64,000 nt of DNA, from NCBI RefSeq assembly GCF_000380165.1, contig NZ_KB904724.1:124257-188256 (forward strand), in the 5' to 3' direction. The position numbers were made by a program, and so were the translations under genes. The number at the start of each line of letters is the position of its first letter. Within the stretch, counting starts at the first letter, position 1. The DNA is from Wenjunlia vitaminophila DSM 41686. Its GTDB lineage: Bacteria; Actinomycetota; Actinomycetes; Streptomycetales; Streptomycetaceae. The notes under the pieces are model-generated. The model did not search any database. It saw only the letters and a list, made by a program, of their open reading frames with translations, and was not told the DNA's origin. Of this stretch, positions 15,661 to 59,991 are shown in pieces.

Positions 15661-16944
15661 ATGCTTGATATCGAACTCATCCGGAAAGAGCCGGACATGG
15701 TCCGGGACGCCCTGCTCAAGCGCATGGACGAGGTGGACCTCGAACCGGTCCTCAAGGCCGACCGGGACCGCCGTCGGCTGCTCCAGGAGGTCGAGTCGGC
15801 GCGGGCCGAGCGCAAGCGGCTCACCAAGGAGATCGGTCGGCAACGGGCGTCCGGCGGCGACACCGCGGAGGCCGAGCGCCGCGCCGCGGGGATCGGCGAG
15901 GAGATCGACCGCGCGCAGGCCGAGTTGACGGGCGTCGAGGAGGCGCTGCGCGGGCTGCTGATGGAGCTGCCCAACCTCCCCGACGACCGGACGCCGCCCG
16001 GGGGCAAGGAGGCCAACCAGGTGGTCCGCACCTGGGGCGAGCGGCCCGACCTGGGCGACGCCCCGCTGGACCACGTGGAGCTCTCCACCAGGCTCGGCCT
16101 CGTGGACTACGCCCGCGGGGTCAAGCTGGGCGGCAACGGCTACTGGCTGTACACCGGGCAGGGAGCCGCGCTGGAGTGGGCGCTGCTGGACTTCTTCAAC
16201 CGGGAGCACTACGCCGCGGGGTACGAGTTCATGCTGCCGCCTCACGTGCTCACCGAGGAGTCCGGGTACGCCGCCGGGCAGTTCCCCAAGTTCTACGACG
16301 ACGTCTTCCACATCCAGGCCACCGAGGGCGGGCGCGGGTCCTTCCTGCTGCCGACCGCCGAGACCGCGATCCTGAACGTCTACCGCGACGAGATCCTGCC
16401 GCTGGACCAGCTCCCGATCAAGGCGTTCGCGTACACCCCCTGCTACCGCCGGGAGTCCGGGAGCCACCGCAGCCAGGAGCGCGGAACCGTCCGCGGCCAC
16501 CAGTTCAACAAGGTGGAGATGTTCCAGTTCACCACCCCGGAGCTGGCCGAGGAGGCGCTGACCGAGCTGGTCGGGCGCACCGAGTCCCTGGTGGAGAAGC
16601 TGGGCCTGCACTACCGGACGTCGCTGCTCGCCGCCCGCGACGCCAGCGCCACCATGCGCATGACCTACGACGTCGAGGTGTGGATCCCCAGCATCCAGAC
16701 CTACAAGGAGGTGTCCTCGGCCTCCTGGGCCGGCGACTACCAGGCGCGGCGGGCCAACATCCGTTACCGGCCGGCACCGGGCAGGCCCACCACCCTGGTG
16801 CACACCCTCAACGCCTCGGGTCTCGCCACCAGCCGACTGCTGCCGGCGATCCTCGAGCAGAACCAACGCCCCGACGGGTCGGTGGTCGTCCCCGAGCCGC
16901 TGCGGGCCTGGGTGGGAACCGACGTCATCCATCCGCGGCGCTGA
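15661..16944 (+). CDS. serS: seryl-tRNA synthetase (cluster-borne second copy)
   Basis: 427 aa class II synthetase with the N-terminal coiled-coil arm (about 1-110) that grips the tRNA-Ser variable arm. Motif 2 is TPCYRRESGSH with RGHQFNKVE (about 259-286); motif 3 lies at the C-terminus (near 377-401, with GLATSRLLPAILE). At 352-357 the usual SSCSN-type serine-pocket stretch reads SSASWA, a change at conserved positions that could lower sensitivity to seryl analogues. An in-cluster SerRS has two precedents: AbmK in albomycin (self-resistance and seryl-adenylate supply) and VlmL in valanimycin (seryl-tRNA supply). GAGGAAG serves as ribosome-binding site. Confidence 0.95.
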   Translation: MLDIELIRKEPDMVRDALLKRMDEVDLEPVLKADRDRRRLLQEVESARAERKRLTKEIGRQRASGGDTAEAERRAAGIGEEIDRAQAELTGVEEALRGLLMELPNLPDDRTPPGGKEANQVVRTWGERPDLGDAPLDHVELSTRLGLVDYARGVKLGGNGYWLYTGQGAALEWALLDFFNREHYAAGYEFMLPPHVLTEESGYAAGQFPKFYDDVFHIQATEGGRGSFLLPTAETAILNVYRDEILPLDQLPIKAFAYTPCYRRESGSHRSQERGTVRGHQFNKVEMFQFTTPELAEEALTELVGRTESLVEKLGLHYRTSLLAARDASATMRMTYDVEVWIPSIQTYKEVSSASWAGDYQARRANIRYRPAPGRPTTLVHTLNASGLATSRLLPAILEQNQRPDGSVVVPEPLRAWVGTDVIHPRR

Positions 16945-23486: not shown

Positions 23487-23974
23487 GGGAGCAGATTAGC
23501 CATCGACGGCCAGACCGCGATTTGCCGCACGGAACAGTCCATGCTCCTGCGACACCCCAGCACACACAGTGACTCCAACGACCGCTTGGGCAGCAGTACT
23601 CGCGACAGTTGAATACGCGAGTCCACCAGTATCAACCCCGCTCACCGACCCACCGGCCAGCCGCCGCCCCCAGCCCGCACGGCTCCCGGCCGGCAGCGTC
23701 GCCCCGCCGCGCCGTGGACGCCCCTGCCGAGGCGAAGCCGCTCGCCCTTCGTACTCAGTCCTACCAGATCTTGCTTGCTCACACGCTGGCCACCGTGCCG
23801 CACCGGTCGGACCCCCGTGACCAGCACGAACACCCGCTCCCCAGCGCTGCCGCCGCGCCGTCACCGGTCCCGCGCCGGACTGAGGTGGTGATCTCAGTGC
23901 CGTGTCAGCGGACTCTGCCAGAGTGGTGCTCGCAAGGACGGGGACGACGGTGACGGAGCCCCCGCCCGACGCGA
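23487..23974. other. non-coding stretch before the tRNA-like gene
   Basis: About 490 bases with the second 62-bp repeat and no believable gene. Small inverted repeats occur at 23879-23898 (ACTGAG/CTCAGT) and around 23917-23927 (CTCTG-C-CAGAG), within 100 bases of the RNA gene. No consensus promoter could be fixed, though a promoter for the RNA should lie here. Confidence 0.4.
23721..23782. repeat. 62-bp direct repeat, copy 2
   Basis: An identical copy of 23392-23453, here detached from the rest of the gene. The minus strand keeps the coding phase for the same residues, but no full protein surrounds it, so it is a duplicated gene fragment. It lies about 190 bases before the tRNA-like gene. 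Confidence 0.9.
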
Positions 23975-24066
23975 GGAGAGATTCCCGTAGCGGCCCAACG
24001 GGGACCGGGAGGCAACTTCCGGTCTAGGTCTCACGGCCTTCGCAGGTTCGAATCCTGCTCTCTCCG
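23975..24066 (+). ncRNA. tRNA-Ser-like RNA without a recognisable anticodon
   Basis: A 92-nt cloverleaf can be drawn. Acceptor GGAGAGA (23975-23981) pairs 7/7 with TCTCTCC (24059-24065), discriminator G24066, no encoded CCA. D-arm CCCG/CGGG has an 11-nt loop with G18G19. A long variable arm AGGTC-TCAC-GGCCT (24026-24039) marks class II. T-arm GCAGG-TTCGAAT-CCTGC (24042-24058) is canonical. G73 and the long arm are the SerRS identity features. The anticodon arm (24004-24023) has a 5-bp stem and a 10-nt loop GAGGCAACTT that can zip to an 8-bp helix capped by GCAA, leaving no U33-NNN loop. It lies 73 bases before the VlmJ-like gene. Alternatives are a decayed tRNA-Ser or an attachment-site relic. 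Confidence 0.85.
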
Positions 24067-24139: not shown

Positions 24140-25102
24140 ATGCCCCAAGGCCGTTGGGCAGGTTTCGCGCTGCTCATCGCCAACCCGGCCGCCGGCGGTC
24201 GGAGTCCTGAGCTCATCGACGCGGTGGCGGCGCACTGCGCGGAGCGGGTCTCCGTCCTGGACGTGGTGCGCACCGGCTATCCGGGGCACGCCTCGGAGAT
24301 CGCCGCCAAGGCCATGGACGAACGGGTGGACCTGGTCATCTCCTTCGGCGGTGACGGGACCACCCGGGAGGTGGCGTCCGGTCTCGCCCGTGCCGCGCAG
24401 GCCCGTCCCGGCCTCGCGGTGCCGCCGCTGCTGCACCTGCCGGGCGGCACCGGCAACTCCTTCTACCGGGAGGTCTGGTCCGACCAGCCGTGGCAGCGGA
24501 CGGTGGACGCGGCGCTCCTCGCCGACCGGCCGTCGCTGCGTCGGGTGGACCTGGCGCACATCGTGGACGCGGACGACTTCGCCCTGCTCGGCGCCGGTTC
24601 CGGACTGATCGCCGAGGCCCTGGTGACCGCGGCCAGGATCGCCGGGGAGAGCCACGGTCGGGACCGCTACCAGCAGAGCGTCGCGCTGACCCTGCGTGAC
24701 TTCGCCCCTTACCCGGGCCGGGTGAGCGTGGACGGGCGCACGGTGCACGAGGGCACCGTCATCCTCGCCAACGTCGGCGGGGGCCGCTACCGGGGTGGCC
24801 AGTTCAAGGTGCTGCCGCACTCGGTGCTCGACGACGGCCTGCTCGACGTGTGCGTCATCGGTGGGGAACTGAGCCTGCGTGACCTGCCGGGCCTCACCCG
24901 CGACGGGAGCCATGTGCACCGTCCCGAGGTGGTCTACGCGCGGGGACGCAGCATCGTGCTCGAGCGCACCGACGGCAACCCGCTGACCTTCGAGTACGAC
25001 GGGGAGCTGCAGACCGGTTCGGCGCAGCGGCACACCGTCGAGGTCATGCCGGGCGTCCTCCCCGTGCTCGCCCCGCCGGCCGCGCGGCCGGGCGGGGAGT
25101 GA
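24140..25102 (+). CDS. diacylglycerol-kinase-family lipid/alcohol kinase, VlmJ-like
   Basis: 320 aa. The DAGK catalytic fold shows ANPAAGG (14-20), SFGGDGTTRE (68-77) and LPGGTGNSF, the nucleotide-binding signature of bacterial DgkB/YegS-type kinases. GGCAGGGAGAG lies just upstream of the ATG. In valanimycin, VlmJ of this family phosphorylates the serine hydroxyl of the azoxy intermediate so that VlmK can eliminate it. Here the two partners flank a diiron oxygenase gene in one operon, a strong contextual match. It lies directly downstream of the tRNA-like gene. Confidence 0.92.
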   Translation: MPQGRWAGFALLIANPAAGGRSPELIDAVAAHCAERVSVLDVVRTGYPGHASEIAAKAMDERVDLVISFGGDGTTREVASGLARAAQARPGLAVPPLLHLPGGTGNSFYREVWSDQPWQRTVDAALLADRPSLRRVDLAHIVDADDFALLGAGSGLIAEALVTAARIAGESHGRDRYQQSVALTLRDFAPYPGRVSVDGRTVHEGTVILANVGGGRYRGGQFKVLPHSVLDDGLLDVCVIGGELSLRDLPGLTRDGSHVHRPEVVYARGRSIVLERTDGNPLTFEYDGELQTGSAQRHTVEVMPGVLPVLAPPAARPGGE

Positions 25103-25152
25103 GGGTCGCCGGGCGGGGACATCGACCGCATCAGTCACGAGGGAGAGCCCTG

Positions 25153-26286
25153 ATGAACGGCCCTGAAGCGAAGACGACCACGGCCAGCGGCGGGGACAGG
25201 AACTGGACCTTCCCCATGGCCGGCGAGAACTTCTTCACCTGGGAGTACGGCAACGGCAGGGAGCGGCTGCTCAACCTGTACCAGAAGGGCAAGGACAAGC
25301 AGTGGGACAGCACCACGCGGATCGACTGGGACATCGAGGTGGACCCGTTCGACGCGCTGGGCACCCCGGAGAACACCCTCGCCCTGTACGGCTCCAAACA
25401 GTACGACAAGCTGAACACCCGTGAGCGGCAGGAGATGCGCCAGCACATGGCGTCCTGGGAGTTCAGCCAGTTCCTGCACGGCGAGCAGGGGGCGATGATC
25501 TGCTCGGCGCGGATCGTGCAGTCCGTCCCCGACCTCGACTCGAAGTTCTACGCCGCCACCCAGGTGATGGACGAGGCCCGGCACGCCGAGATCTTCTCCC
25601 GGTTCCTGGACGAGAAGATCGGCATGCAGTACAAGATCAACCCCAATCTCCAGGCCCTGCTGGGCGACGCGCTCAACGACTCCCGCTGGGACATGCCGTA
25701 CCTGGGCATGCAGGTGCTGATCGAGGGCCTGGCGCTGGCCGCGTTCGGCATCCTGCGGGACAAGACCAACAAGCCGCTGCCCAAGCAGATCCTGGCCTAC
25801 GTGATGCAGGACGAGGCGCGGCACGTGGCGTTCGGCCGGCTGGCGCTCCGGGACTACTACGCCCAGTTGTCGGCGAAGGAGATCGCCGAGCGCGAGGAGT
25901 TCGTGGTCGAGGGCTGCTACCTCATGCGGGATCGTTTCCGCATGCAGGAGGTCTGGGAGAACCTCGGCTTCGACATGGACGAGTGCATGGAGTACATGAA
26001 CCGCGGCCCGCGGATGCGGGCGTTCAGGTCGTTGCTCTTCACCCGGATCGTGCCCTGTGTGCGGGACATCGGCCTGTGGGGGCCCAAGGTGAAGCAGGCG
26101 TACGAGGACATGGGCGTCCTGGAGATGGCCAACAGCGACCTGATCAAGCTCATGCAGTCCGACGAGGCCCAGGCGGAACTGCTGGACCGGGAACGGGCCG
26201 AGGCGGCGCGCCGGCAGGAGGCGCAGGAAATCGCCGACCGGGTGGCCGAGGTGGACCAGGCCATCACGGCCGGCGCCGCGGAGTGA
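25153..26286 (+). CDS. ferritin-like diiron oxygenase
   Basis: 377 aa, long helices, complete ferritin-like diiron ligand set: E111 in HGEQ, E141 and H144 in DEARH, E191 in IEGLA, and E221 and H224 in the second DEARH. Such proteins activate O2 on a carboxylate-bridged diiron site. VlmB of valanimycin is a non-heme diiron enzyme that oxidises a hydrazine to the azoxy group; a second diiron gene at 41845-42804 competes for that role. This one might instead perform amine oxidation or chain desaturation. It sits between the VlmJ- and VlmK-like genes and its stop overlaps the latter's GTG. Confidence 0.9.
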   Translation: MNGPEAKTTTASGGDRNWTFPMAGENFFTWEYGNGRERLLNLYQKGKDKQWDSTTRIDWDIEVDPFDALGTPENTLALYGSKQYDKLNTRERQEMRQHMASWEFSQFLHGEQGAMICSARIVQSVPDLDSKFYAATQVMDEARHAEIFSRFLDEKIGMQYKINPNLQALLGDALNDSRWDMPYLGMQVLIEGLALAAFGILRDKTNKPLPKQILAYVMQDEARHVAFGRLALRDYYAQLSAKEIAEREEFVVEGCYLMRDRFRMQEVWENLGFDMDECMEYMNRGPRMRAFRSLLFTRIVPCVRDIGLWGPKVKQAYEDMGVLEMANSDLIKLMQSDEAQAELLDRERAEAARRQEAQEIADRVAEVDQAITAGAAE

Positions 26287-27800
26287 CCTCGGCGGCGGAG
26301 GAGCCGACGGCCTCCGGGAGCACCACCGCGGTTGACTCGCTCACCCGGCGGCTGGCCCGCTGGACCGCCGGGCTGCGCCTCGACGACGTTCCCGAACGGG
26401 TGATCCCGGTCGCGGTGAGCCAGGTGATCTCCCACCTGGCCACCGTCCGGGCCTCGGTGGCCCACCCGATGGGCCGCAGGCTGCTCACCGCGTTCGGCCA
26501 ACCCGACCCCGCCGACCCCGCGCGCACCGCCCACCTGCTCGCCGCGCTGTCCTCCTGCCTGTACCTGGAGGACACCATGTACGCCGGGCACGTGGCGCAC
26601 GCCGGAGTCGGGGTGCCGGTCGCCCACCAGGAACGGCAACGCCTGGACGGACGTGGTCTCCTGGCCGCGGTCATCGCCGCCAACGAGTCCGCGGCCAGGG
26701 TCACCGCGGCGGCCACCCTGGGACCGTTCCGCGGCCAGCAGGCCTCCCACACCCACCTGGTGGCCGCGGTCGCCGCCCGGCTGCACGGTGCCGGCGCCGA
26801 CCACGACGCCCTGCTCAACGCGTGGGGACTGGCCCTGGCCGCGCCGCCGCTGTGGCTGCGCCCCTCGTTCCTCGGCAGCGACGCCAAGGTGCTCTCCGCG
26901 GCCGTCCCGGTGCGCATCGCCATGGACGCCTGCGACGCCGCGGCGGCCGGCCTGACCGGCCGGGACGACCTGCTGGAGCACCCCGACGGGGTGCTGGCCA
27001 AGTTCGCCCACGCCCCCGTCCCCGAGGCCGTGGTCGCCGGCCTCGGGGAGCGCTGGCACACCGAGACGCTGTCGTTCAAGCTCTTCCCCGGCGCGGTCCA
27101 CCTCGACGCGCTGGTGGAGTGCGCCGCGGAGCTGCACCGCCGGCTCCGTCCACGCGGGGCGGACGACGTCGAGGCGGTGGAGATGCACGTGCCGCGGATG
27201 ACCATGGTGATGAGCCGGCACGCCGGGCGCTACACCCGCGGGCCCGACTCACCCCTGGTCGCGGTCAACATGTGGGCCGGCTACAACGTGGCCACCGCCC
27301 TGCTCACCGGCGGCCTCGGGGTCGCGGACCTGGCGGAACCACTGGTGCGTGACCCGGACCGCTGGGCACTCGCCGGGAAGCTCACCATGATCCCCGACGA
27401 GACGCTGAGCCAGGAGGGCATCGCCGGGACCGCACCGGTCGGTGAGGCGCTGCGCCAGGCCGGGCCGCGGGCGCTGGACTGGAGGACCGAGCTGCCCGGC
27501 AAGCCCCTGGAACAGCTCCTCGAGGAACTCGGCCCGCCGAGCCCCACGTTCGAGCACGCCACCAAGAAGCTGGGCTGCCGGATGGTGGTGCGGATGGCGG
27601 ACGGGCGCCGGGACAGCTACGCCATGGACGCCGGCACCGGCTCGGTGGGTTCGCCCTCCTGGTCCGCCCACCCCGAGCTGGTTCGCGACAAGCTGCTGGC
27701 CACCGGGGCGGACAAGGAGACCGCGCGGACCCTCGCCCGGCTCCCCGAACTGTCCGTGGACGAGCTGTCCCGGGTGCTGCGCCAGGTCCTCACCTGGTAG
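26283..27800 (+). CDS. MmgE/PrpD-family lyase, VlmK-like
   Basis: 505 aa from a GTG that overlaps the preceding stop. The sequence follows the MmgE/PrpD family: an all-helical first domain with LTRRLARWTAGL and LEDTMYAGHVAHAG, then KLFPGAVHLDAL and a small alpha/beta part with VEAVEMHVPRMT. PrpD itself dehydrates 2-methylcitrate. VlmK in valanimycin eliminates phosphate from the VlmJ product to create the dehydroalanine-type double bond. The family identity with a kinase two genes upstream makes the same two-step elimination likely here. Confidence 0.92.
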   Translation: MTSAAEEPTASGSTTAVDSLTRRLARWTAGLRLDDVPERVIPVAVSQVISHLATVRASVAHPMGRRLLTAFGQPDPADPARTAHLLAALSSCLYLEDTMYAGHVAHAGVGVPVAHQERQRLDGRGLLAAVIAANESAARVTAAATLGPFRGQQASHTHLVAAVAARLHGAGADHDALLNAWGLALAAPPLWLRPSFLGSDAKVLSAAVPVRIAMDACDAAAAGLTGRDDLLEHPDGVLAKFAHAPVPEAVVAGLGERWHTETLSFKLFPGAVHLDALVECAAELHRRLRPRGADDVEAVEMHVPRMTMVMSRHAGRYTRGPDSPLVAVNMWAGYNVATALLTGGLGVADLAEPLVRDPDRWALAGKLTMIPDETLSQEGIAGTAPVGEALRQAGPRALDWRTELPGKPLEQLLEELGPPSPTFEHATKKLGCRMVVRMADGRRDSYAMDAGTGSVGSPSWSAHPELVRDKLLATGADKETARTLARLPELSVDELSRVLRQVLTW

Positions 27801-40769: not shown

Positions 40770-41848
40770 TGCGCGCCCTGCGCGGCGACCCGCGGGTTCT
40801 CCAGCCGGCGCACGTCCTCGCTGACCTCGGCGAGGTAGTCGGAGACCTCGAGGTACGACTTGAGCATGGTGCACTCGACGTAGGGCAGGCCGTTGCGCAG
40901 GCAGTAGTCCTTCACCAGCGGGTGGGCCCGGCGCAGGTTGCTGCGCGGCATCGACGGGAACAGGTGGTGCTCGATCTGGTAGTTGAGCCCGCCGTAGAGG
41001 AAGTGGGTGATCCGGTTGGGCATGAGGTTGCGGGAGGTGACGACCTGCCGGGTCAGCCAGTCCCACTCCTCCTTGTCCCCGTCCCGCACCGGCAGCCCCT
41101 TGTGGTTGGGGGCGAACAGCAGGCCCATGTAGAGGCCGAAGAGGGCCTGGTGGATGAGGATGAACAGCACGCCCTTGACCGGGGACATCACCCAGAAGAC
41201 GGCGACGAGGTACACCGCGAGGTGCAGGGTGAGGACGGTCAGCTCGGTCTTCTTGTAGCGCTTGAGGGCGCCCCGGCGGGCCGCGATGAACCCGGACAGG
41301 TGCAGCCGCAGGCCCTCCATCATGATGGTGATGTAGAACATCCACGCCTGGTGCCGCACGATGAACCTGGCCAGGGCCCCGGTGCGCCGGTCGCGGTGCT
41401 TGGCGGTGAAGATGACCTGACGGCGCAGGATGTCCGGGTCCTTGGACAGGTGGTTGGGGTAGTTGTGGTGCTGCGTGTGGTGGCCCACCCACCAGCCGAA
41501 GCTCACCCCGGACAGCACGTTGCCGTGGATGTAGCCGACCACCTCGTTGCCGCGCTTGGTGCGGAAGAGCTGCCGGTGGCCGGCGTCGTGCCCGATCAGG
41601 TCGGTCTGGGTGGTGACGAACGCCAGCAGGACCGCGACGGCCATCTGCCACCACGAGTCGCCCACCACCACGAACAGCGCCCAGGAGCCGATGAGCAGCA
41701 GCGCGTTAACCGTGATCTTGTACGTGTAGTAGCCGGGCCGGACATCCATCAGCCCCGCGTCCCGCACCAGCTTGGAGATCTCCTCGAAACTGCCGGTGTG
41801 GGACAGCGTCCCGCTGTTGGCCGCCGCCGGGCGCTCGACATCGGTCAC
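40766..41848 (-). CDS. membrane fatty-acid desaturase
   Basis: 360 aa. Three histidine boxes of acyl-lipid/acyl-CoA desaturases are present: HDAGH (87-91), HHTQHH (123-128) and QIEHH near 300, between pairs of TM helices. It should introduce a double bond into the aliphatic chain (the vinyl or internal alkene seen in several azoxyalkene antibiotics). Start GTG overlaps the upstream stop. The longer upstream frame is a shadow of the diiron gene. Confidence 0.93.
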   Translation of the reverse strand: MTDVERPAAANSGTLSHTGSFEEISKLVRDAGLMDVRPGYYTYKITVNALLLIGSWALFVVVGDSWWQMAVAVLLAFVTTQTDLIGHDAGHRQLFRTKRGNEVVGYIHGNVLSGVSFGWWVGHHTQHHNYPNHLSKDPDILRRQVIFTAKHRDRRTGALARFIVRHQAWMFYITIMMEGLRLHLSGFIAARRGALKRYKKTELTVLTLHLAVYLVAVFWVMSPVKGVLFILIHQALFGLYMGLLFAPNHKGLPVRDGDKEEWDWLTRQVVTSRNLMPNRITHFLYGGLNYQIEHHLFPSMPRSNLRRAHPLVKDYCLRNGLPYVECTMLKSYLEVSDYLAEVSEDVRRLENPRVAAQGAQ

Positions 41849-42804
41849 AGCGCTTCCTCCAGGCCCATGTACACCAGTCGCTGCTGCTGCATGCGGTCGG
41901 CCCACTCGTGCGCGGTGGCGATGCGCTCGTCCGGGGTGGTGTCCACCAGGCGTCGGCCCGGCCACACCTCGTAGTCCCCGAGCAGGTGCCCGTGCTCCTC
42001 GATGCCCTGCTGGAACAGGCCCTCGCGGCGCTCCATCATCGCCTGGGCCGGCAGGTCCTTCCACAGGTGCCGGCCGCTGTTGATCAGCTCGAGGATGCGG
42101 TCCTTCTCCTCGGGGTGCTTCAGCAGGTACTCGCGGGCGATGGAGCTGCCGACGGTGAGGTGCCGGATCTCGTCGATCGCTGCCCCGCGCTCGATCTCGG
42201 ACGCCGCCGGATCGAAGATCTTCCACTTGCGCTCGCTCAGTTCGGCGGCGGGTGCGAGCACGCCCTCGACGAGGATGGTGAGCACCACGACCCCGCCGAT
42301 GAAGTCGCTCTCGTCGCGCAGCACCCGCAGGCCCAGGTCCTCGAGCGGCACCAGGATGCCGTCCTTGTCCTCGCGGGCCAGCCGTTCGATGGACTGCCAC
42401 AGCTCGGCCTGGGGGATGCCCAGGTCCAGCAGGTGGCTGCGGAAGACCATGGCGTGCCGGGCCTCGTCCATGAGCTGGGTGGCGTAGAACTCCATGGAGT
42501 CGTTGTCGGGGGCGAGCGCCACCAGGTAGGAGATGGCCCGGGTGGCCTTCTCCTCGGCGATCGACCGGAACGCCAGCTCCTGGGTGAGCGCGTCGTTCAA
42601 CGGCCCGGGCCGGCTGGTGATCTCCGGGGTGCCGACGTCGTCGGCGTGGCCCAGCACATTGCCGCGCAACGTTCCCTGGGGGACCGCGCGGAGCCAGTAC
42701 TGGAGGTTGCAGGAGGCCGCGGTCAGCTCAAGGCTCATGGCCCCGTCGACCAGCGAGGGGGCGTTCTCCCAGTCGGCCTCGGCAGGGATCTTCTGGTCGG
42801 TCAA
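41845..42804 (-). CDS. ferritin-like diiron enzyme, probable VlmB counterpart
   Basis: 319 aa. Ligand candidates: E84 or E85 in AEEKATR, E114 and H117 in DEARH, E180 in LVEGV, and E212 and H215 in DEIRH. The start is a TTG with GAGGAG seven bases upstream. It is directly downstream of a small membrane protein that fits VlmO, the partner that makes the N-N bond before VlmB forms the azoxy group in valanimycin. That pairing makes this the better VlmB candidate than the diiron gene at 25153-26286. Confidence 0.9.
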   Translation of the reverse strand: MTDQKIPAEADWENAPSLVDGAMSLELTAASCNLQYWLRAVPQGTLRGNVLGHADDVGTPEITSRPGPLNDALTQELAFRSIAEEKATRAISYLVALAPDNDSMEFYATQLMDEARHAMVFRSHLLDLGIPQAELWQSIERLAREDKDGILVPLEDLGLRVLRDESDFIGGVVVLTILVEGVLAPAAELSERKWKIFDPAASEIERGAAIDEIRHLTVGSSIAREYLLKHPEEKDRILELINSGRHLWKDLPAQAMMERREGLFQQGIEEHGHLLGDYEVWPGRRLVDTTPDERIATAHEWADRMQQQRLVYMGLEEAL

Positions 42805-45126: not shown

Positions 45127-46263
45127 TCAGGTCAGACGGAGCGGCCGGCCCGCGACGTGGTCCAGGAACGGCCCGGTGAAGCTGTCCCGGGACGGCGGGT
45201 GGAAGGAGAGCCCGTGGGAGGCGGCGGCGAGGTACGACACCTCGTCCGAGCCGATGAACGCCATACCGCCGAGCAGTTCCACCGCGCGGTTGCGGGCGTC
45301 CCCCAGCGCGTCCTGGGCCGCGTACCTGGCGACCAGCGACTTGGCGAGGCCGGCGTTGTCGGCCTCGCCGTCCCTGATCATGCGGGCGGTGCCCTCGAGC
45401 AGGAGCTGCGCGGTCTCCAGCCGGGCCACCAACCGCGCCCGGTCCGAGTCGCTGCCCCGGCCCCGGACCAGCACCCTCTCCACCAGGGTGCTGACCATGC
45501 CCAGGTAGCAGGCGGAGATCAGCAGCTCGAACCAGATGAAGCCCACGGTCTGGAGCTGGTCCAGCTCCCCGGCCTCGCCGAGCTCGGTGCGCATCAGCAG
45601 TTGCTCGTCGACGAAGACGTTCTCCAGCCGCACCTCGTCGCTCTCCGCACCGGCCAGGGTCCTGGTCCCCCAGAACGGGTGGACACTGATCCCCTCGGTC
45701 TCCCGGGGCACCAGCAGCACGGCCATCTGCTCACCGCCGTCGTCGGTGGGCAGCGACACGCTCGCGGTGAGCAGGCTCATCGAGTGGGCCAGGCTGCACG
45801 GCTTCTTGGCGCCGTTGATCAGGAAACCGCCCTCGGCCTTGCTCGCGGTCATGGTGGGGGTCAGGATGCCCCGGCCCGGCTGGCCCTCGGCGAACCCCGA
45901 GGCGACCAGCAGCCCCTGCTCGGCGATCCCCTCGAGCAGCGCCCATTCCATGCCGCTGCTCTGGATGCTGTCGGCGAGGGTGAACAGGGTCGCGACGGAG
46001 AAGTGGTGCATGGTGGTGCCGACGGCCAGCGACGGCGCCCGCGAGGCCAGGGCGCGGGTCACCGCGAGCGCCTGGACCGGGTCGGCCCCACCCCCCTTGT
46101 ACTCCTTGGGGATCACCAGACCCGGTCCGCCACGGGCACGGAAGCGGTCCATGGCGGGACTCTTCGGGGCTTCCAACTCGGCGAGCGGGATCGCGGCGAG
46201 GTCGTCGAGCAGTCCGGGCAGGAACGATTCGCAGACATCCTTGGCGGCTTCCAACGAGCGCAT
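45127..46263 (-). CDS. acyl-CoA-dehydrogenase-fold amine N-hydroxylase candidate, VlmH-like
   Basis: 378 aa with the ACAD layout: helical N-domain, beta-barrel (GFLINGAKKPCS) and C-terminal helices ending ELLGGMAFIG. The ATG at 46263 has GAGGAAAG upstream; the frame beyond it is not conserved-like. VlmH, the isobutylamine N-hydroxylase, belongs to this flavin-monooxygenase branch of the superfamily, so N-hydroxylation of the alkylamine is the expected reaction. No VlmR-type flavin reductase was found in the window. A true acyl-CoA dehydrogenase role cannot be ruled out. Confidence 0.87.
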   Translation of the reverse strand: MRSLEAAKDVCESFLPGLLDDLAAIPLAELEAPKSPAMDRFRARGGPGLVIPKEYKGGGADPVQALAVTRALASRAPSLAVGTTMHHFSVATLFTLADSIQSSGMEWALLEGIAEQGLLVASGFAEGQPGRGILTPTMTASKAEGGFLINGAKKPCSLAHSMSLLTASVSLPTDDGGEQMAVLLVPRETEGISVHPFWGTRTLAGAESDEVRLENVFVDEQLLMRTELGEAGELDQLQTVGFIWFELLISACYLGMVSTLVERVLVRGRGSDSDRARLVARLETAQLLLEGTARMIRDGEADNAGLAKSLVARYAAQDALGDARNRAVELLGGMAFIGSDEVSYLAAASHGLSFHPPSRDSFTGPFLDHVAGRPLRLT

Positions 46264-46393
46264 GGGCTTTCCTCGGTTCCTGGAGGGGTGGGCGGGCGTG
46301 ACCCGGGTGCCGCCGGCGGCCGGGGAGCGCGCCGGTGCCCCGGGGGTGCGGTCGAACGGCCCGGTGGCGTGGCCCGTCGGGCCGGTCGCGCGG

Positions 46394-48094
46394 TCAGCGG
46401 CTGCCGTTGCGCATCGCGTGCCAGGCGCCGAAGACGGAGTCCCGGGGGCGGGTGCCGGGGGCGGCCACCGCCACGCCCTGGACGTGCGAGGTGCGCAGGA
46501 TGGGGTAGTTGGCCTCGCCGAAGACACCGCCGGTCAGGCCGGTGCCGCCGTGCGTGGGCAGGTAGGACAGGAAGCCGATGTGCGAGTCGTTCACCTTCAA
46601 CAGGCCACCGGTGGTGACCCGGGACACGAACCGGTCCACCACCTGCGGGTCCCGCGCCCACAGCGAGTTCCGCAACCCGTACTCGTTGCTGTTGACGTAG
46701 TCGATGAACCGCTCCAGCAGGACGTCGTCGTCGGCCGGCTCCGCCGCGATCACCGGGAGCAGTGGGAAGAACGTCTCGTGGCGGACCGCCTTGACCTCGC
46801 GGGCCCCCGCCAGGCCGCGCACCAGGACCACCGTCGGCTCCAGGAAGATGCCGGCGGTGTCCCGGGTCTCGTCCATCTGCATGGCGTGCCCGCCGCACAC
46901 CAACTCGGCGCCCCTGGCCAGCGCGTCGTCCAGACAGTCGAAGAACTTCTCGTTCCGCAGCACCGGCGTCAGCAGCACGTCCTCCTCCCCGGGGTGTCCG
47001 GGGCGGATGTGGCCGACCTTCCGGGCCAGCAGGGCAACCAGCTCATCGACGACGTCCGGGTGCGCCACCACCTGGTTGGGGATCATGCAGAGCTGACCCG
47101 AACCGTAGAAACTCTCGGTCAGCGCCTCCGCGGCCAGCTCCAGGTCGGCGTCCTTCCAGACCACCACCGCGTCGTTGCCGGCCAGCTCCAGGATGGGCTT
47201 CTTGCCGGCGGCGACGCAGCGCTCCTGGAACTTCATGCCGTTCTCGCTGTTGCCGAAGTACATGATGTCGTCCACCGCGGGGCTCTCCAGCCAGGCGGTG
47301 AGCATCGGGGCCGGGTCGCCGCAGACCACGTTGAGCGTGCCGGGCGGGGCACCGACCTCCTCCAGCACCGGGGCCACCACCTCGTGCAGCACGTACATCA
47401 CCCCGAGCGGGCCGCTGCGCGGGGCGCGGACCACCAGCGCGTTGCCGGCCATCACCGCGTTCACCCCGAGCAGGGCGCTGGACAACGGCGCGTTCTGCGG
47501 CGGGTTCAGGCACACCACCCCGTCCGGCTGCCGGCGCACCACGATCCGCCGCCCGTCGTGCCGGAACTCCTGGTGCATCTGCGACCGGTAGAAGCCGAGC
47601 GACTCCGGGCCGAAGCACTCGAGCATGCCCGAGACCTGCCAGCGGGCCAGGGCCAGCGGGTGCCCCTCCTGGACCAGGATCTCGGTGATCTCCTCCGCCT
47701 TCTCCGCGAGCCTGCGGTGGATGCCCGCGCCGACCGCGGTCAACCGGGTCTCCAGGGGGAAGGCCGCCCACTGCGGGGCCGCCCGGGAGGCCGCCTCCAC
47801 CGCGAGCTGCACCGTGGCCCGGTCCGCCTTGGCGACCCGGCCCACGATGCTGGCGGGCAGGTCCTGGGCGGGAACCCGTCCCTGTTCCAGCTTCCGCTTC
47901 AGGGTCAGGCTCGAGAACGCGTCCTCAAGCAGAGCCGCAGCGTCCACGACGTACACCCAGTCGGTGCTCGGCACCCCCTTGCCGTCGATGTAGGAGAGGT
48001 AGGTGCGAACGTCCTGACCGGCCCGGCGGGGCGGGGCGGACGCGGCGGGATCCCGTCGGCGTGACACCGGTGCCGACAACTCGAGGCTGCTCAC
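46394..48094 (-). CDS. aldehyde dehydrogenase-superfamily enzyme (acyl reductase candidate)
   Basis: 566 aa. The catalytic Cys336 lies in GSGQLCMIPN and the general base E303 in LELAGND; a Rossmann region sits near 190-280. In a fatty-amine pathway the useful direction is reduction of the acyl-ACP or acyl-CoA thioester to the aldehyde for transamination; ordinary aldehyde oxidation remains possible. It is the first gene of the left-going operon and diverges from the VlmA-like gene. Confidence 0.88.
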   Translation of the reverse strand: MSSLELSAPVSRRRDPAASAPPRRAGQDVRTYLSYIDGKGVPSTDWVYVVDAAALLEDAFSSLTLKRKLEQGRVPAQDLPASIVGRVAKADRATVQLAVEAASRAAPQWAAFPLETRLTAVGAGIHRRLAEKAEEITEILVQEGHPLALARWQVSGMLECFGPESLGFYRSQMHQEFRHDGRRIVVRRQPDGVVCLNPPQNAPLSSALLGVNAVMAGNALVVRAPRSGPLGVMYVLHEVVAPVLEEVGAPPGTLNVVCGDPAPMLTAWLESPAVDDIMYFGNSENGMKFQERCVAAGKKPILELAGNDAVVVWKDADLELAAEALTESFYGSGQLCMIPNQVVAHPDVVDELVALLARKVGHIRPGHPGEEDVLLTPVLRNEKFFDCLDDALARGAELVCGGHAMQMDETRDTAGIFLEPTVVLVRGLAGAREVKAVRHETFFPLLPVIAAEPADDDVLLERFIDYVNSNEYGLRNSLWARDPQVVDRFVSRVTTGGLLKVNDSHIGFLSYLPTHGGTGLTGGVFGEANYPILRTSHVQGVAVAAPGTRPRDSVFGAWHAMRNGSR

Positions 48095-48374
48095 GCTTTC
48101 CTCCGCTTTCTCCTGCCCTTGCGAGCGGCACGGGCATATGCGACATGCGGTGCGTCGGCGAGAACTCTCTCAGCAGCACCTGAAAACCTTCGGAGACCGC
48201 ACTGAGACCGCCCCGTCAGCGGGGTGCAAGAGCGAAGGAGGAGCGTGGTCGTCCGGGCGGACGGCACCGCGGCCCGGGGCCGGCCGGCCTGGCGAGCTGC
48301 ACCGGAGCCCCCGGCGGTTCCAGCGGGCACCGGTAGGCCTCACCGGCGTCGGCGCGACGGCAGGAGGAGCGAAC
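48095..48374. promoter_or_regulatory. divergent intergenic region of the azoxy operons
   Basis: 280 bases separate the ten-gene operon and the VlmA-like gene and must hold both promoters. A cluster SARP gene lies 1.1 kb away, so SARP direct-repeat sites are expected here; I could not define a convincing repeat by eye. AGGAGG sits before the VlmA-like ATG. Confidence 0.45.
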
Positions 48375-49373
48375 ATGACCACTGTGGACGAGGGCACCAG
48401 CTTCGACGCGGTTCTCAACTGCCTGCGGGCACACGGTGAGAACCCGAGTGCCTTCCTGGCGCTGAACACCGGCAACGAGTACTTCACCACCCGGGCCGTG
48501 GACGGAGTGGTGGCCTATCGCCGAGCCGGACGTTACCTGATCCAGTTCGGCGGCCCGTTCGCGGCCCCCGAGGACCAGGCGGCGCTGCTGACCGCGTTCC
48601 TCGACTTCGCCGGGGAACAGCGGCGGCGGGTGGTGGCGATCCAGCTCCAGCGCTCCGACGCGGAGCTGTACGCGGAGTCCGGCTTCACGGTCAACCAGGT
48701 GGGCGGTTCCTACTCGGTGCACCTGCCCGAGTTCACCCTGCGCGGCACCCGCTTCATGAAGCTGCGGAACAAGATATCCCGCGCCAGGCGGAGCGGGCTC
48801 GAGGTCAGTGAGGTGCCCCTGGAGAAGTGCCAGCAGGACATCGAGACGATCGACCGCCAGTGGCTGCGCGGCAAGGGCCGCCACGTCAAGGAGATCGAGT
48901 TCCTGGTGGGACAGTGCGGCGGGCCGGCCCAACGGGAGCGCCGCCTGCTCCTCGGCCGGGTCGAGGGGGTTCCGGTGGCGTACATCTCCTACTCACCGGC
49001 GTACGGCTCCCGTCCGGGATGGCTCCACGACCTGAGCCGGCGCGTCCCCAGCGTCGCCCCCGGGGTGATGGAGGCGATCAACCTCCAGGCCATGGAGACG
49101 TTCAAGAACGAGGGGGCCGAATGGCTGCACTTCGGCTTCACCCCGTTCACCAGCCTCTCACCGGACCACGAGGTCTCCTCGGCGAGCCGGGGCACCGCGA
49201 GGTTCATGCGGTTCCTCGCCGACCACGGGGAGAAGGTGTACCCGGCGGCGAGCCAGCTCGCCTACAAGGAGAAGTGGAACCCGCACCTGGTGCTCCCCGA
49301 GTACCTCGCCTTCCACGGCCGGGCCAGGTTCGGGGCGATCTGGCAGGTGCTGAGGGTGACCAAGTCCGTGTAG
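48375..49373 (+). CDS. seryl transferase, VlmA-like (DUF2156/phosphatidylglycerol-lysyltransferase family)
   Basis: 332 aa, GNAT-like fold. MKLRNKISRARRSG near residue 118 and the final WNPHLVLPEYL resemble DUF2156 proteins, aminoacyl-tRNA transferases related to MprF. In valanimycin VlmA uses seryl-tRNA to esterify the hydroxylamine with serine. AGGAGG precedes the ATG. This is the enzyme that would consume a seryl-tRNA donor, including the RNA at 23975-24066. Confidence 0.9.
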   Translation: MTTVDEGTSFDAVLNCLRAHGENPSAFLALNTGNEYFTTRAVDGVVAYRRAGRYLIQFGGPFAAPEDQAALLTAFLDFAGEQRRRVVAIQLQRSDAELYAESGFTVNQVGGSYSVHLPEFTLRGTRFMKLRNKISRARRSGLEVSEVPLEKCQQDIETIDRQWLRGKGRHVKEIEFLVGQCGGPAQRERRLLLGRVEGVPVAYISYSPAYGSRPGWLHDLSRRVPSVAPGVMEAINLQAMETFKNEGAEWLHFGFTPFTSLSPDHEVSSASRGTARFMRFLADHGEKVYPAASQLAYKEKWNPHLVLPEYLAFHGRARFGAIWQVLRVTKSV

Positions 49374-49446: not shown

Positions 49447-50208
49447 TCACAGCAGGGCGGGGTCCTGGCGCAGGATCTCGTGGAACTTGGCCCGCAGCGC
49501 CTGGCCGGGTTCGAGGCCCAGGTCCTGGGCGAGACGCTGCCGGGTGCGGTGGTAGGCGTCCAGGGCGTCGGCCTGCCGGCCGGACCGGTACAGCGCGGTC
49601 ATCAACTGCTCGCAGAACCGCTCACGCAGCGGGTACTGCGCGTGGAGCTGTTCGAGTTCGGTGATGACGGAACGGTGCATGTCCAGCTTGAGCTTGGCGT
49701 CGAAGAGCTGTTCGCGGGCGGTGAGCCGGGTCTCGGCGAGCCGGGCGTAGGCCATCCGGCAGATCATGCCGTGGCCGGCGTCCAGCAGCGCCGGTCCGCG
49801 CCACAGCCGCAGCGCCTCGGTGAGCAGCACCACGGTGCGCCGGGGATGCTCCTCGTGCACGGTCTCCGCGTGCAGCACGAGGTCGTAGAAGCGGAGGGCG
49901 TCCACGTCATGGGTGGGAATGGCAAGGGTGTAGCCGGAGTAGGACGTCTGGATGATGGAGCGCAGACTTTCCCGACCGGTGCGTTCGGCGAGGATTCTGC
50001 GGAGTCTGGCGATGTGCCCCTGGAGGGAGTTCTCCGCGTTGCGGGGAGGTTCCTCCGCCCACAGCTCGTCTATGAGATCATCGCGGGACACGGGGCTGCC
50101 GGGGGTGAGCGCCAGGACGGCGAGGATGGCCCGGAGCTTCTCACCCGGGATGCTGAGCGAGATGCCCTCGTCCACCACTTCCAGCGACCCGAGAATGTTG
50201 ACCTGCAT
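49447..50208 (-). CDS. SARP-family pathway regulator
   Basis: 253 aa. The N-terminal OmpR-type winged helix (about 1-95, with LRAILAVLALTPGSPVSRDD and LQGHIARLRRIL) and a bacterial transcriptional activation domain (about 100-250) define the Streptomyces antibiotic regulatory protein family. SARPs bind direct repeats upstream of biosynthetic operons as activators. It lies amid cluster C and is its likely activator. Confidence 0.95.
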   Translation of the reverse strand: MQVNILGSLEVVDEGISLSIPGEKLRAILAVLALTPGSPVSRDDLIDELWAEEPPRNAENSLQGHIARLRRILAERTGRESLRSIIQTSYSGYTLAIPTHDVDALRFYDLVLHAETVHEEHPRRTVVLLTEALRLWRGPALLDAGHGMICRMAYARLAETRLTAREQLFDAKLKLDMHRSVITELEQLHAQYPLRERFCEQLMTALYRSGRQADALDAYHRTRQRLAQDLGLEPGQALRAKFHEILRQDPALL

Positions 50209-55065: not shown

Positions 55066-55319
55066 AGGCGTTTCCTGAGCCGCCGCTGAGATCGCCCTGA
55101 CACGGGTGTGTCAGGGGCGTGTCGTCGATTCCGGACAGACTGGCCTTGCCGCGCCGCCGCCGGCGGCGGTCCCCGGCCCGCCGCGCCGCCGTGGCACCGT
55201 CCTGTCCCGCGCCCCCTGCCCGCCCTCCGGCCGCCCGCCCACACGGCCAGGTCCCACGGCTCCGTACCCCGCACCCCGGTCAGGTCACCCGTTCATCCGT
55301 CCCGTCGGAAGGCATTGAC

Positions 55320-56528
55320 ATGACAGGCACCGCCACCCCGCACGACCCGCAGTACCGCTACCCGATCCCCCGCACCTCCCCCCACGAGCCGCCGTGCGAG
55401 TACGCCAAGCTCCGCACTGAACAGCCGGTCTGCCCCATCGCCCTGCCGACGGGGCATCCGGCCTGGCTCATCACCCGTTACGAGGACGTCAAGACGGTGC
55501 TGTCGGACCACCGGTTCAGCCGGGAGGCGCTGTTCCGTGAGGGCGCGCCGCGCGCGCAACTGGTCGAGCCCGACTCCAACAGCGTGATCAGCATGGACCC
55601 GCCGCGGCACACCACGATCCGGAACCTGATCAACCGGACGTTCACCCCGCGGCGCTCGGAGAAGCTGCGGCCGACCATCAACCGCGTGGTGACCGACTTG
55701 CTGGACGCCATGGAGGTGGCGCCCAAGCCGGTGGACCTCAACGCCGCCCTGGCCCGGCCCATGGCGCTGCGGATCATCTGCGAGCTGCTCGGCATCCCGA
55801 TCGAGGACCACCCCAAGTTCGGTAGCTGGTGCGACCACTTCATGTCGCTGACCAAGTACACCGCCGAGGAGATCATCCGCTCCAACCAGGAGATGCGGGC
55901 GTACTTCGGCAGGCTGATCGACATCAAGCGGGAGGAACCGGGTGAGGACCTGCTCACCCAGCTCGTCCAGGCGATGGACGAGGAGGAGAAGATCACCCGT
56001 GAGGAGCTGATCAGCACCGGCGTCATGCTGCTGATCGCCGGGCACGACACCACGGTGACCGTCACCGGTGGCGGCGCGATCATGCTGATGACCCACCCCG
56101 ATCAGATGGCGCTGATCAAGGAGGACCCGACCCGGCTGAACCCCGCCATCGAGGAGATCATCCGCATGGTGACCCCGGGCGACGGGACCTTCATCCGGAT
56201 CACTCTGGAAGACGTCGAACTCAGCGGCACCACCATCCCCGCCGGTTCCGCGGTGATCGCTCCGATCAGCTCCGCCAACCGCGACGCGGAGGTCTTCCAG
56301 GACCCCGACACCATGGACATCCTCCGCGAGGACAACAAGCACATCGGTTTCGCCCACGGGACGCACTTCTGCGTGGGGTCCGCGCTCGCCCGGGCCGAAC
56401 TCCAGATCGGCCTCGGCATGCTGTTCGAACGTTTCCCCGGACTGCGGCTGGCCGTGCCCGCGGAGGAGCTGCGCTGGCGCAGCACCGCGGCCCTCGGCGG
56501 CTACGAGGAGATCCCCGTCACCTGGTGA
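55320..56528 (+). CDS. cytochrome P450
   Basis: 402 aa. The I-helix oxygen motif is AGHDTT (240-245), and the heme cysteine is C351 in FAHGTHFCVG. There is no membrane anchor, as is typical for Streptomyces biosynthetic P450s. No dedicated ferredoxin is adjacent. Expected to hydroxylate or otherwise oxidise the chain or a late azoxy intermediate. Confidence 0.95.
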   Translation: MTGTATPHDPQYRYPIPRTSPHEPPCEYAKLRTEQPVCPIALPTGHPAWLITRYEDVKTVLSDHRFSREALFREGAPRAQLVEPDSNSVISMDPPRHTTIRNLINRTFTPRRSEKLRPTINRVVTDLLDAMEVAPKPVDLNAALARPMALRIICELLGIPIEDHPKFGSWCDHFMSLTKYTAEEIIRSNQEMRAYFGRLIDIKREEPGEDLLTQLVQAMDEEEKITREELISTGVMLLIAGHDTTVTVTGGGAIMLMTHPDQMALIKEDPTRLNPAIEEIIRMVTPGDGTFIRITLEDVELSGTTIPAGSAVIAPISSANRDAEVFQDPDTMDILREDNKHIGFAHGTHFCVGSALARAELQIGLGMLFERFPGLRLAVPAEELRWRSTAALGGYEEIPVTW

Positions 56529-56572
56529 CCACCGGGGTCTTCCGCGGGCGGCCACGAACGGAGAGGAACCCC

Positions 56573-58816: not shown

Positions 58817-58836
58817 CCCCCCGGATCACCGTGCGC

Positions 58837-58870
58837 CCGGTGGTCGGCGCGGCCCCGCCCCGACCACCGG
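58837..58870. terminator. terminator after the molybdopterin oxidoreductase gene
   Basis: CCGGTGGTCGG (58837-58847) and CCGACCACCGG (58860-58870) are exact inverted copies with a 12-base loop, 20 bases after the stop. Confidence 0.75.
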
Positions 58871-58956
58871 TGCCGCCGGGTAGCCCCGGACGGCGGTTAG
58901 TGAGCGGGCGGGGACGGTACACATGACAGGACGTCCGGAAGGAGAGCCGACCCGTC

Positions 58957-59991
58957 ATGACCGCTACCCACGTCACCAGCCGCGAGGTACGTCTCGTCGC
59001 CCGACCGAGCGGCTGGCCGCAGCCGGAGGACTTCGAGGTCGCCGAGGTGCCCGTCACCGAACCCCCGCCCGGCCACGTCCTGGTGCGCAACCTCCACCTC
59101 TCCGTGGACCCCTACATGCGCGGCCGGATGAACGACCAGGACTCCTACGTGCCGCCGTTCGAGCTGGACCAGCCGATGGAGGGCGGCGCCGTCGGCCGGG
59201 TGGTGTCCTCCCGCGCCCCCGAGCTGCCCGAGGGCACCCATGTGCTGCACCCGCTGGGCTGGCGGGAGTACGCCGTGCTCGACGCCCGCCAGGCCACCCC
59301 GGTTCCCACCAGGTTCGACAACGGGCAGACCGTCCCGTTGAGCACGTACCTGGGAGTGCTGGGGATGACCGGGCTCACCGCCTACGCCGCCCTGGTCGAG
59401 GTGGCCCGCCTCCGGGAGGGTGACGTGGTGTTCGTCTCCGCCGCGGCCGGGGCGGTGGGGAGCGCGGCCGGGCAGATCGCCCGTCTGCGGGGGGCGTCCC
59501 GGGTCATCGGCAGTGCCGGCACCCCGGAGAAGGTCCGACTCCTCCTGGACGAGTACGGGTTCGACGCCGCGTTCGACTACCGGGCGGGGTCGGTGGTCGA
59601 ACAGTTGCGGAGCGCCGCCCCGGAGGGCATCGACGTCTACCTCGACAACGTCGGGGGTGACCACCTCGAGGCCGCCATCGACGTGCTGCGGGTCCACGGA
59701 CGCGTCGCCATGTGCGGCATGATCTCGCAGTACAACACCACCGAGGCGACCGCGGCGCCGCACAACCTGGCCAAGGTGATCGGCAAGCGGCTGACCCTGC
59801 GCGGGATGCTGGTGCGCGACCACTCCGACCTCCGCGAGCAGTTCTTCCACGAGGTGGGCGGTTGGGTGCGGACCGGCGCGCTGAAGTACCAGGAGACGGT
59901 GGTGGAGGGGATCGACAACGCGGTGGAGGCGTTCATCGGCATGCTCCGCGGGGAGAACGTCGGCAAGATGGTGGTCTCGCTCCCGGAGTGA
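58957..59991 (+). CDS. NADP-dependent MDR reductase (alkenal/one oxidoreductase type)
   Basis: 344 aa. VRNLHLSVDPYMRGRM at the start, FVSAAAGAVGSAAGQIA as the nucleotide-binding loop and YLDNVGGDHLEAA are typical of zinc-free MDR proteins such as CurA and leukotriene-B4 12-hydroxydehydrogenases. They reduce activated C=C bonds with NADPH. AAGGAGAG precedes the ATG. A role on an alpha,beta-unsaturated pathway intermediate is plausible. Confidence 0.92.
   Translation: MTATHVTSREVRLVARPSGWPQPEDFEVAEVPVTEPPPGHVLVRNLHLSVDPYMRGRMNDQDSYVPPFELDQPMEGGAVGRVVSSRAPELPEGTHVLHPLGWREYAVLDARQATPVPTRFDNGQTVPLSTYLGVLGMTGLTAYAALVEVARLREGDVVFVSAAAGAVGSAAGQIARLRGASRVIGSAGTPEKVRLLLDEYGFDAAFDYRAGSVVEQLRSAAPEGIDVYLDNVGGDHLEAAIDVLRVHGRVAMCGMISQYNTTEATAAPHNLAKVIGKRLTLRGMLVRDHSDLREQFFHEVGGWVRTGALKYQETVVEGIDNAVEAFIGMLRGENVGKMVVSLPE

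Follow-up and report, generated by a model that had tools for sequence, protein, structure and literature searches.

The window, a 64,000-nucleotide stretch of Wenjunlia vitaminophila DSM 41686 DNA, carries in a valanimycin-type azoxy cluster a gene for a seryl-tRNA-like RNA whose anticodon arm is replaced by a closed hairpin. Sequence comparison establishes the structure of this RNA, its membership of a wider family, the absence of a decoding loop, its linkage to vlmA genes, its restriction to one VlmA clade and a recurring promoter motif. Judged on this evidence, the window RNA is probably a dedicated, non-decoding serine carrier feeding VlmA.

Enzymes that make metabolites from aminoacyl-tRNA are generally thought to borrow the charged tRNA from translation. 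In the valanimycin pathway VlmA draws on seryl-tRNA, and a dedicated seryl-tRNA synthetase (SerRS), VlmL, is encoded within the vlm cluster, according to the accessible portions of PMC9379638 and PMC12945691; the latter, within its accessible portion, likens VlmA to FemABX proteins and describes the valanimycin enzyme as characterized with Ser-tRNA-Ser. No mention of an RNA gene in a valanimycin-type pathway was found in these portions of PMC9379638 and PMC12945691, which describe ordinary Ser-tRNA. The relevant features of the window are as follows.

15661..16944, + strand: second seryl-tRNA synthetase (VlmL-like)
23892..23924, + strand: SARP-type promoter region, with TCTCAG (23892-23897), TGTCAG (23903-23908) and then TGCCAGAGT (23916-23924)
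23975..24066, + strand: anticodon-less seryl-tRNA-like RNA gene, with G73 at 24066 and CCA not encoded (from sequence, ARAGORN, RNAfold and the family model)
24003..24024, + strand: 9-bp hairpin standing in for the anticodon arm and capped by GCAA at 24012-24015 (from the fold)
24140..25102, + strand: VlmJ-type kinase (DAGK_cat and YegS_C domains), its ATG 73 nt past the last base of the RNA and preceded by GGGAGAG
25099..26286, + strand: AurF-like N-oxygenase (by domain, PF11583)
25983..27800, + strand: VlmK-type MmgE/PrpD protein, given as ORF limits, with the true start probably later, near 26286
41845..42804, - strand: VlmB-like protein, 52% identical to a protein named VlmB-like in a plasmid record
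43801..45117, - strand: class III aminotransferase
45127..46527, - strand: acyl-CoA-dehydrogenase-fold flavoprotein, which we take to be VlmH-like
46394..48094, - strand: aldehyde dehydrogenase family protein, given as ORF limits that overlap the neighbor
48138..49373, + strand: VlmA-like aminoacyl-tRNA-dependent transferase (PF09924), conserved from about 48351
49447..50208, - strand: SARP regulator (BTAD and Trans_reg_C domains)

The cluster was classified as valanimycin-type from its PF09924 VlmA-like transferase and VlmH-like flavoprotein (both assigned by domains), its SerRS, and its VlmJ-type (DAGK/YegS) and VlmK-type (MmgE/PrpD) proteins. It resembles the known pathway in having VlmA-, VlmH-, VlmB-, VlmJ- and VlmK-type proteins and a second SerRS, and differs from it by the added RNA gene, the immediate neighbor of which is the vlmJ-type kinase gene; vlmA lies 24 kb away. 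Farther along, at 55119-59991, genes for a P450, a molybdopterin oxidoreductase and a zinc-binding dehydrogenase stand in a row, the first two of which are conserved in the same-genus genome G001.

A first-pass annotation of the DNA had described the RNA as a class II cloverleaf with seven of seven acceptor pairs, a variable arm, a T-arm and G73, and on this the sequence, ARAGORN and RNAfold agree. The RNA has 92 bases and shares with bacterial class II tRNA-Ser the 7-bp acceptor, GG in the D-loop, a canonical T-loop, a long variable arm (here with a 5-bp stem) and G73. The normal U33-anticodon-purine loop, reported missing, is replaced in the fold by a GCAA-closed 9-bp hairpin, which consists of the 8-bp capped helix previously placed within 24004-24023 plus one pair outside it; the three pairs by which the would-be loop was proposed to pair further (G-U, A-U and G-C) appear in the fold as well. 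No loop able to present an anticodon is left in this fold. Set against what a decoding tRNA-Ser has, the window RNA shows the class II cloverleaf, the long variable arm and G73, and lacks the 5-bp anticodon stem, the 7-nt U33 loop and a serine anticodon. The ordinary tRNA-Ser found in the same genome (four, with anticodons UGA, GCU, CGA and GGA) served as controls and have 5-bp anticodon stems, 7-nt loops and U33.

RNAfold gave a minimum free energy of -48.2 kcal/mol (z -4.42), and none of 200 dinucleotide shuffles was equally stable; the fold is raised above chance by relatives in many genomes whose arms differ yet are still paired. ARAGORN finds the gene without an amino-acid name ('tRNA-???', 'gcaa') and detected no tmRNA in the window. 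The 64-kb window had no Rfam match at gathering level, the best sub-threshold match for the RNA being tRNA-Sec (RF01852; 30.7 bits vs a cut-off of 47), and a search of its own genome with RF00005 (E≤0.001) returned 57 tRNAs, the window RNA not among them. With the family model described below, it scores 84.8 bits and the ordinary tRNA-Ser of the same genome 44.6-48.7 bits.

In an initial BLAST search covering 100 genomes, one of them that of the window, six had matches: the window's own genome, G001, G011, G017, G020 and G040. Tandem copies number two in G001 and five in G017. A covariance model (R1) was built from six sequences and run with a threshold of E≤1e-9 on 394 genomes of the host's taxonomic family, scoring at most 11 candidates per genome under strict filters, settings that may miss weak members. 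Matches were obtained in 41 genomes belonging to 8 of 17 genera, the highest copy number per genome being at least 11. Complete counted copies score at least 68 bits, except that of G040 at 56.5; ordinary tRNA-Ser of other opened genomes score up to 59.3 bits. From 46 sources 84 copies (62 distinct) were collected, rising to 99 (75 distinct) with later loci, after two copies truncated at contig ends, in L143 and L146, had been dropped; the 75 include the copy of G040, which stands outside the 41 genomes, and leave out those of G667 and the plasmids. G73, the T-loop motif and the D-loop GG are present in all 75, a full T-stem in 74 and a 7/7 acceptor in 70. Pair 51-63 is A-U in 75/75 copies, unlike the G-C seen by eye in the own genome's four tRNA-Ser.

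A pattern scan of named genomes gave at least 119 stretches, with records of Streptomyces, Kitasatospora, Streptacidiphilus and Embleya among the matches listed; S. lavendulae CCM 3239 and S. griseofuscus DSM 40191 are two of the strains. A looser class-wide search (E≤1e-7) returned matches mostly of about 49-59 bits; because the five loci opened (L312-L316) were ordinary tRNA-Ser, this threshold was kept out of the counts, and the search added one clear member, in G667. ARAGORN assigns anticodons to many relatives, and its names vary between tRNA-Pro, Ala, SeC, Gln and Arg in L007, L053, L066 and L067; databases may for this reason hold false tRNA-Sec and other calls.

Copy number and placement varied. 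Genomes of genus g14 hold about 10-11 or more copies each (L096, L097 and L102-L104, from G140 and G233; also G201, G211, G217 and G245); many are dispersed, several lie close to chromosome ends, and the copies read have SARP-type boxes. Seven copies stand in a row in G233 (L102:8450-10922), most 265 bp apart, and all copies of this locus start with GGATAGG, which gives one acceptor mismatch. G417 carries equal-scoring copies on opposite strands near both ends of a chromosome-size contig (C1:124246-124329 and C1:8139565-8139648), placed as in terminal inverted repeats.

The 62 distinct copies were folded with the acceptor, D and T stems imposed. Their hairpin loops are GCAA (11 copies), GAAA (4), UUCG (4) and 27 others, and in none of the 62 imposed-stem folds do all five canonical anticodon-stem pairs form. 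Over the 75 distinct copies the loop measures 3-6 nt save in three (8, 8 and 10 nt); the 7-nt anticodon loop that had been named beforehand as evidence against the proposal is found in none of them, and one plasmid copy has such a loop, without U33. A relaxed test allowing a decoding loop at any offset matched 13/75 copies, which the folds led us to judge register artefacts inside longer hairpins, the sole 5/5 match (L142) included. No loop or anticodon is common to the whole family, which, unlike bacterial tRNA-Ser, has no anticodon stem-loop able to decode. The GNRA cap noted in the window RNA is not kept in the family, where UUCG, CUCG, UCUG, CACGU and other caps rule it out as a conserved feature; because the cap varies, what the family conserves is a hairpin that offers no decoding loop.

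Pairing in the arm was assessed in the six-sequence alignment, in which paired cells make up 92.2% and covariation scores 0.173 vs 0.102 in shuffles, with 0/500 shuffles reaching 0.173. Compensatory changes in the capped stem, suggested earlier as a check, were found: three of the eight arm pairs are changed on both sides, and three depart by unpaired cells. One of five measures on this alignment (further pair types) gave no excess over shuffles, and, folded individually, G020 (z -1.67) and G040 (z -1.31) give weak structures. The loops around UGCUUU in L100, L086 and L092 are reminiscent of a GCU anticodon, which hints at a possible origin of the family from tRNA-Ser(GCU).

Proteins similar to VlmA were searched for at E≤1e-30 in 394 genomes, taken as the same 394 as in the RNA search since size and handles agree. 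A VlmA-type seryl transferase was found in 64, all 41 RNA-bearing genomes among them, and 0/330 genomes without VlmA reach the RNA threshold (Fisher p 1.6e-39, a value that ignores kinship). The recurrence of class II tRNA-like genes without anticodons in other azoxy clusters, a check put forward with the original description, was borne out by coordinates in 37/41 genomes, where no more than 25 kb separates the RNA from vlmA. In 24 of 32 loci holding both, the distance is at most 400 bp (0.1-0.4 kb), with the RNA always 5' of vlmA, divergent in 23 and on the same strand in one; in five genomes (G001, G240, G284, G288 and G348) the two are about 8-17 kb apart. The four genomes with no listed copy within 25 kb are G011 (RNA and vlmA on different contigs), G211 (RNA on other contigs), G112 (44 kb) and G233 (more than 1 Mb for the listed copies).

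A maximum-likelihood tree was built from 61 VlmA proteins encoded in fetched stretches; those absent from it include the VlmAs of G011, G112, G240, G348, G037, G218, G349 and G394. Thirty-five proteins were labelled RNA-linked, three of these (L029, L148 and L149) by same-contig coordinates, and all 35 fall in one clade of 38 (support 99/98), the other three members of which come from genomes that carry the RNA elsewhere (G211, G233 and G235). The 23 VlmAs outside the clade have no RNA copy in their 20-kb stretches, their loci give no R1 match above 24.5 bits, and four of them are second VlmAs of RNA-bearing genomes (G020, G059, G280 and G417). By these sequence comparisons the RNA tracks one VlmA clade. 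ARAGORN also made five calls in the 23 loci, and the four viewed were one ordinary-looking tRNA-Arg and three judged to be chance. G040 has only distant VlmA-like matches, and its diverged RNA copy, scoring within the range of ordinary tRNA-Ser, possibly serves another pathway. In this copy (L033:12172-12263) the hairpin is capped by GUGA, and GTCA boxes occur at a spacing of 11 bp.

Where RNA and vlmJ occur together, the RNA stands 53-191 bp upstream of vlmJ on the same strand in 14/16 loci, the window included. Among the 32 loci with RNA and VlmA, vlmJ was counted in 8, vlmK in 7, SerRS in 14 and SARP in 26; these are lower bounds, as the stretches, the window excepted, were no longer than 20 kb, and the VlmK query carries an N-terminal stretch that may be non-coding. 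In the loci with other VlmAs, vlmJ, vlmK and SerRS are each found in 0/23 and SARP in 1/23. For many dispersed RNA copies the stretch read holds no azoxy gene, and over 15 loci with such copies no protein group is common to more than a few.

Direct repeats of the GTCAG type 11 bp apart are a signature of SARP regulators. Upstream of 62 leader copies, GTCA pairs occur 77 times at 11 bp and 32 times at 22 bp, and at most seven times at every other spacing up to 40 bp, these spacings serving as control. An exact pair at 11 bp is present in 48/62 leaders and a triple in 29/62; the window copy has no exact GTCA pair, the TCAG of its TCTCAG and TGTCAG being 11 bp apart. RNA copies distant from any azoxy gene mostly retain the boxes, which argues for action in trans.

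SerRS genes were surveyed in 80 genomes (the 41 RNA-bearing, 23 VlmA-only, 15 without VlmA, and G667). A second SerRS was found on the vlmA contig in 21/41 RNA-bearing genomes and also in G667, and in none of the other 20. In 20 of the 21 the N-domain score is weak, at about 27-47 bits vs 72-95 for each genome's best copy, the exception being the second SerRS of the window at 88.1 bits. In G245 a small contig carries a further SerRS that scores below the cut-off. Additional second SerRS copies, with scores of 65-82 bits, were found away from vlmA in RNA genomes and also in 3/23 VlmA-only genomes (G216, G247 and G336) and 2/15 controls (G012 and G014).

Outside the taxonomic family, G667 (another family of the same class) carries a tandem array of three UUCG-capped copies with GTCAG boxes, and on one contig with the RNA a SerRS gene at about 1 kb and VlmA at 24.5 kb. 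RNA matches were also found in six plasmid records. In H2, H4 and H6 the stretch around the RNA holds genes for DUF2156 (VlmA-type) and acyl-CoA dehydrogenase proteins, with a 'VlmB-like' gene as well in two of the three, and in H1 and H3 no azoxy gene was found in the stretch read. The copy of H4 (S. lavendulae pSA3239; L318:10004-10088) has a stem of 6 bp and a loop of 7 nt that lacks U33, and ARAGORN calls it tRNA-Ser(act).

The non-decoding seryl carrier already suggested in the first-pass annotation is supported, at the level of sequence comparison, by linkage to vlmA, paired changes in the arm, the single VlmA clade, the SARP-type promoter boxes, the vlmJ association, the second SerRS and the dispersed copies. 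We infer that the RNA is transcribed, charged and used by VlmA, and that it is of benefit. The pathway's SARP would switch on the RNA along with the azoxy genes, and the transcript would be processed like a tRNA, with CCA then added. Serine would be attached by the cluster's second SerRS where present and otherwise by the housekeeping enzyme, since recognition by SerRS depends on the long variable arm rather than on the anticodon. VlmA would transfer the seryl group from the charged RNA to the hydroxylamine, and further azoxy-cluster proteins would then lead to the azoxy bond. VlmJ and VlmK, which in valanimycin biosynthesis act in the dehydration of valanimycin hydrate, would dehydrate the serine-derived CH2OH. 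Having no anticodon loop, the RNA cannot serve codons, so a high dose from tandem and dispersed copies becomes possible, which would spare translation and keep serine from the ribosome. A somewhat doubtful extension is a private, orthogonal set outside translation, in which the cluster's often divergent SerRS prefers the anticodon-less tRNA, a VlmA of the one clade reads it, and the whole is shielded from the ribosome and switched by SARP.

Several observations weigh against a dedicated carrier. Among the strongest are that ordinary tRNA may suffice, since the valanimycin VlmA was characterized with Ser-tRNA-Ser (PMC12945691, accessible portion), and that the diverged copy of G040 stands in a genome lacking a close VlmA. 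Further objections are the four genomes without a nearby vlmA, the dispersed copies without azoxy genes, the plasmid copy with a 7-nt loop, the 20/41 genomes without a second SerRS on the vlmA contig and the second SerRS in some non-RNA genomes. The RNA could instead be regulatory and control the cluster as a tRNA mimic, either by binding or titrating SerRS or by sensing serine charging, and its place in the presumed vlmJ-operon leader at 14/16 vlmJ loci and just before vlmA at 24/32 would suit this; we consider it unlikely, because position and orientation differ between loci, dispersed copies carry their own SARP-type boxes, the window has no T-box or other Rfam leader at gathering level, and copy numbers that reach 11 or more per genome exceed the needs of a sensor. 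The boxes and the high copy number fit any role in trans, one of which is defense of translation, with the RNA protecting the producer as a sink or decoy for serine and not acting as a direct VlmA substrate. This is less likely again, given that the RNA accompanies one VlmA clade only, was not found with other VlmAs and is tied to vlmJ and vlmK genes.

The remaining explanations deny the RNA a role in the pathway. Functionless, decayed tRNA-Ser genes spread by mobile elements would account for dispersed copies without shared neighbor proteins, for copies on plasmids and for loops that recall a GCU anticodon, but such genes would hardly keep their acceptor, D, T and variable arms while the anticodon arm varies with pairing retained; promoter boxes recur, and VlmA is present in every genome over threshold, so that decay is very improbable. 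Scarcely credible is a decoding RNA, whether tRNA-Sec or a tRNA-Ser with an unusual anticodon: the weak Rfam match to tRNA-Sec and the anticodons that ARAGORN gives to many relatives point that way, and against it stand a tRNA-Sec score far short of the cut-off, an acceptor of 7 bp and a family without a common loop or anticodon.

The dedicated serine carrier has partial parallels in known systems. The non-proteinogenic tRNA-Gly genes of staphylococci, which supply peptidoglycan synthesis, are likewise set aside for a Fem-type transferase, but these tRNAs keep the anticodon arm and differ from the window RNA in amino acid, host and product. tmRNA is also an aminoacylated tRNA-like RNA without an anticodon; unlike the window RNA, it takes alanine, has an mRNA-like part and works in ribosome rescue. 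No description of such an RNA was found in the open-access literature searched, a scope outside which most subscription journals and bioRxiv preprints fall, and the family is likely new to the literature.

If the carrier role is correct, tRNA itself can be split off for metabolism, much like a carrier protein. The RNA could give a natural orthogonal SerRS-tRNA pair, could be used in genome mining to mark one clade of azoxy clusters and could explain odd tRNA calls in streptomycete genomes, and the competition of such pathways with translation becomes a question for a deletion experiment.
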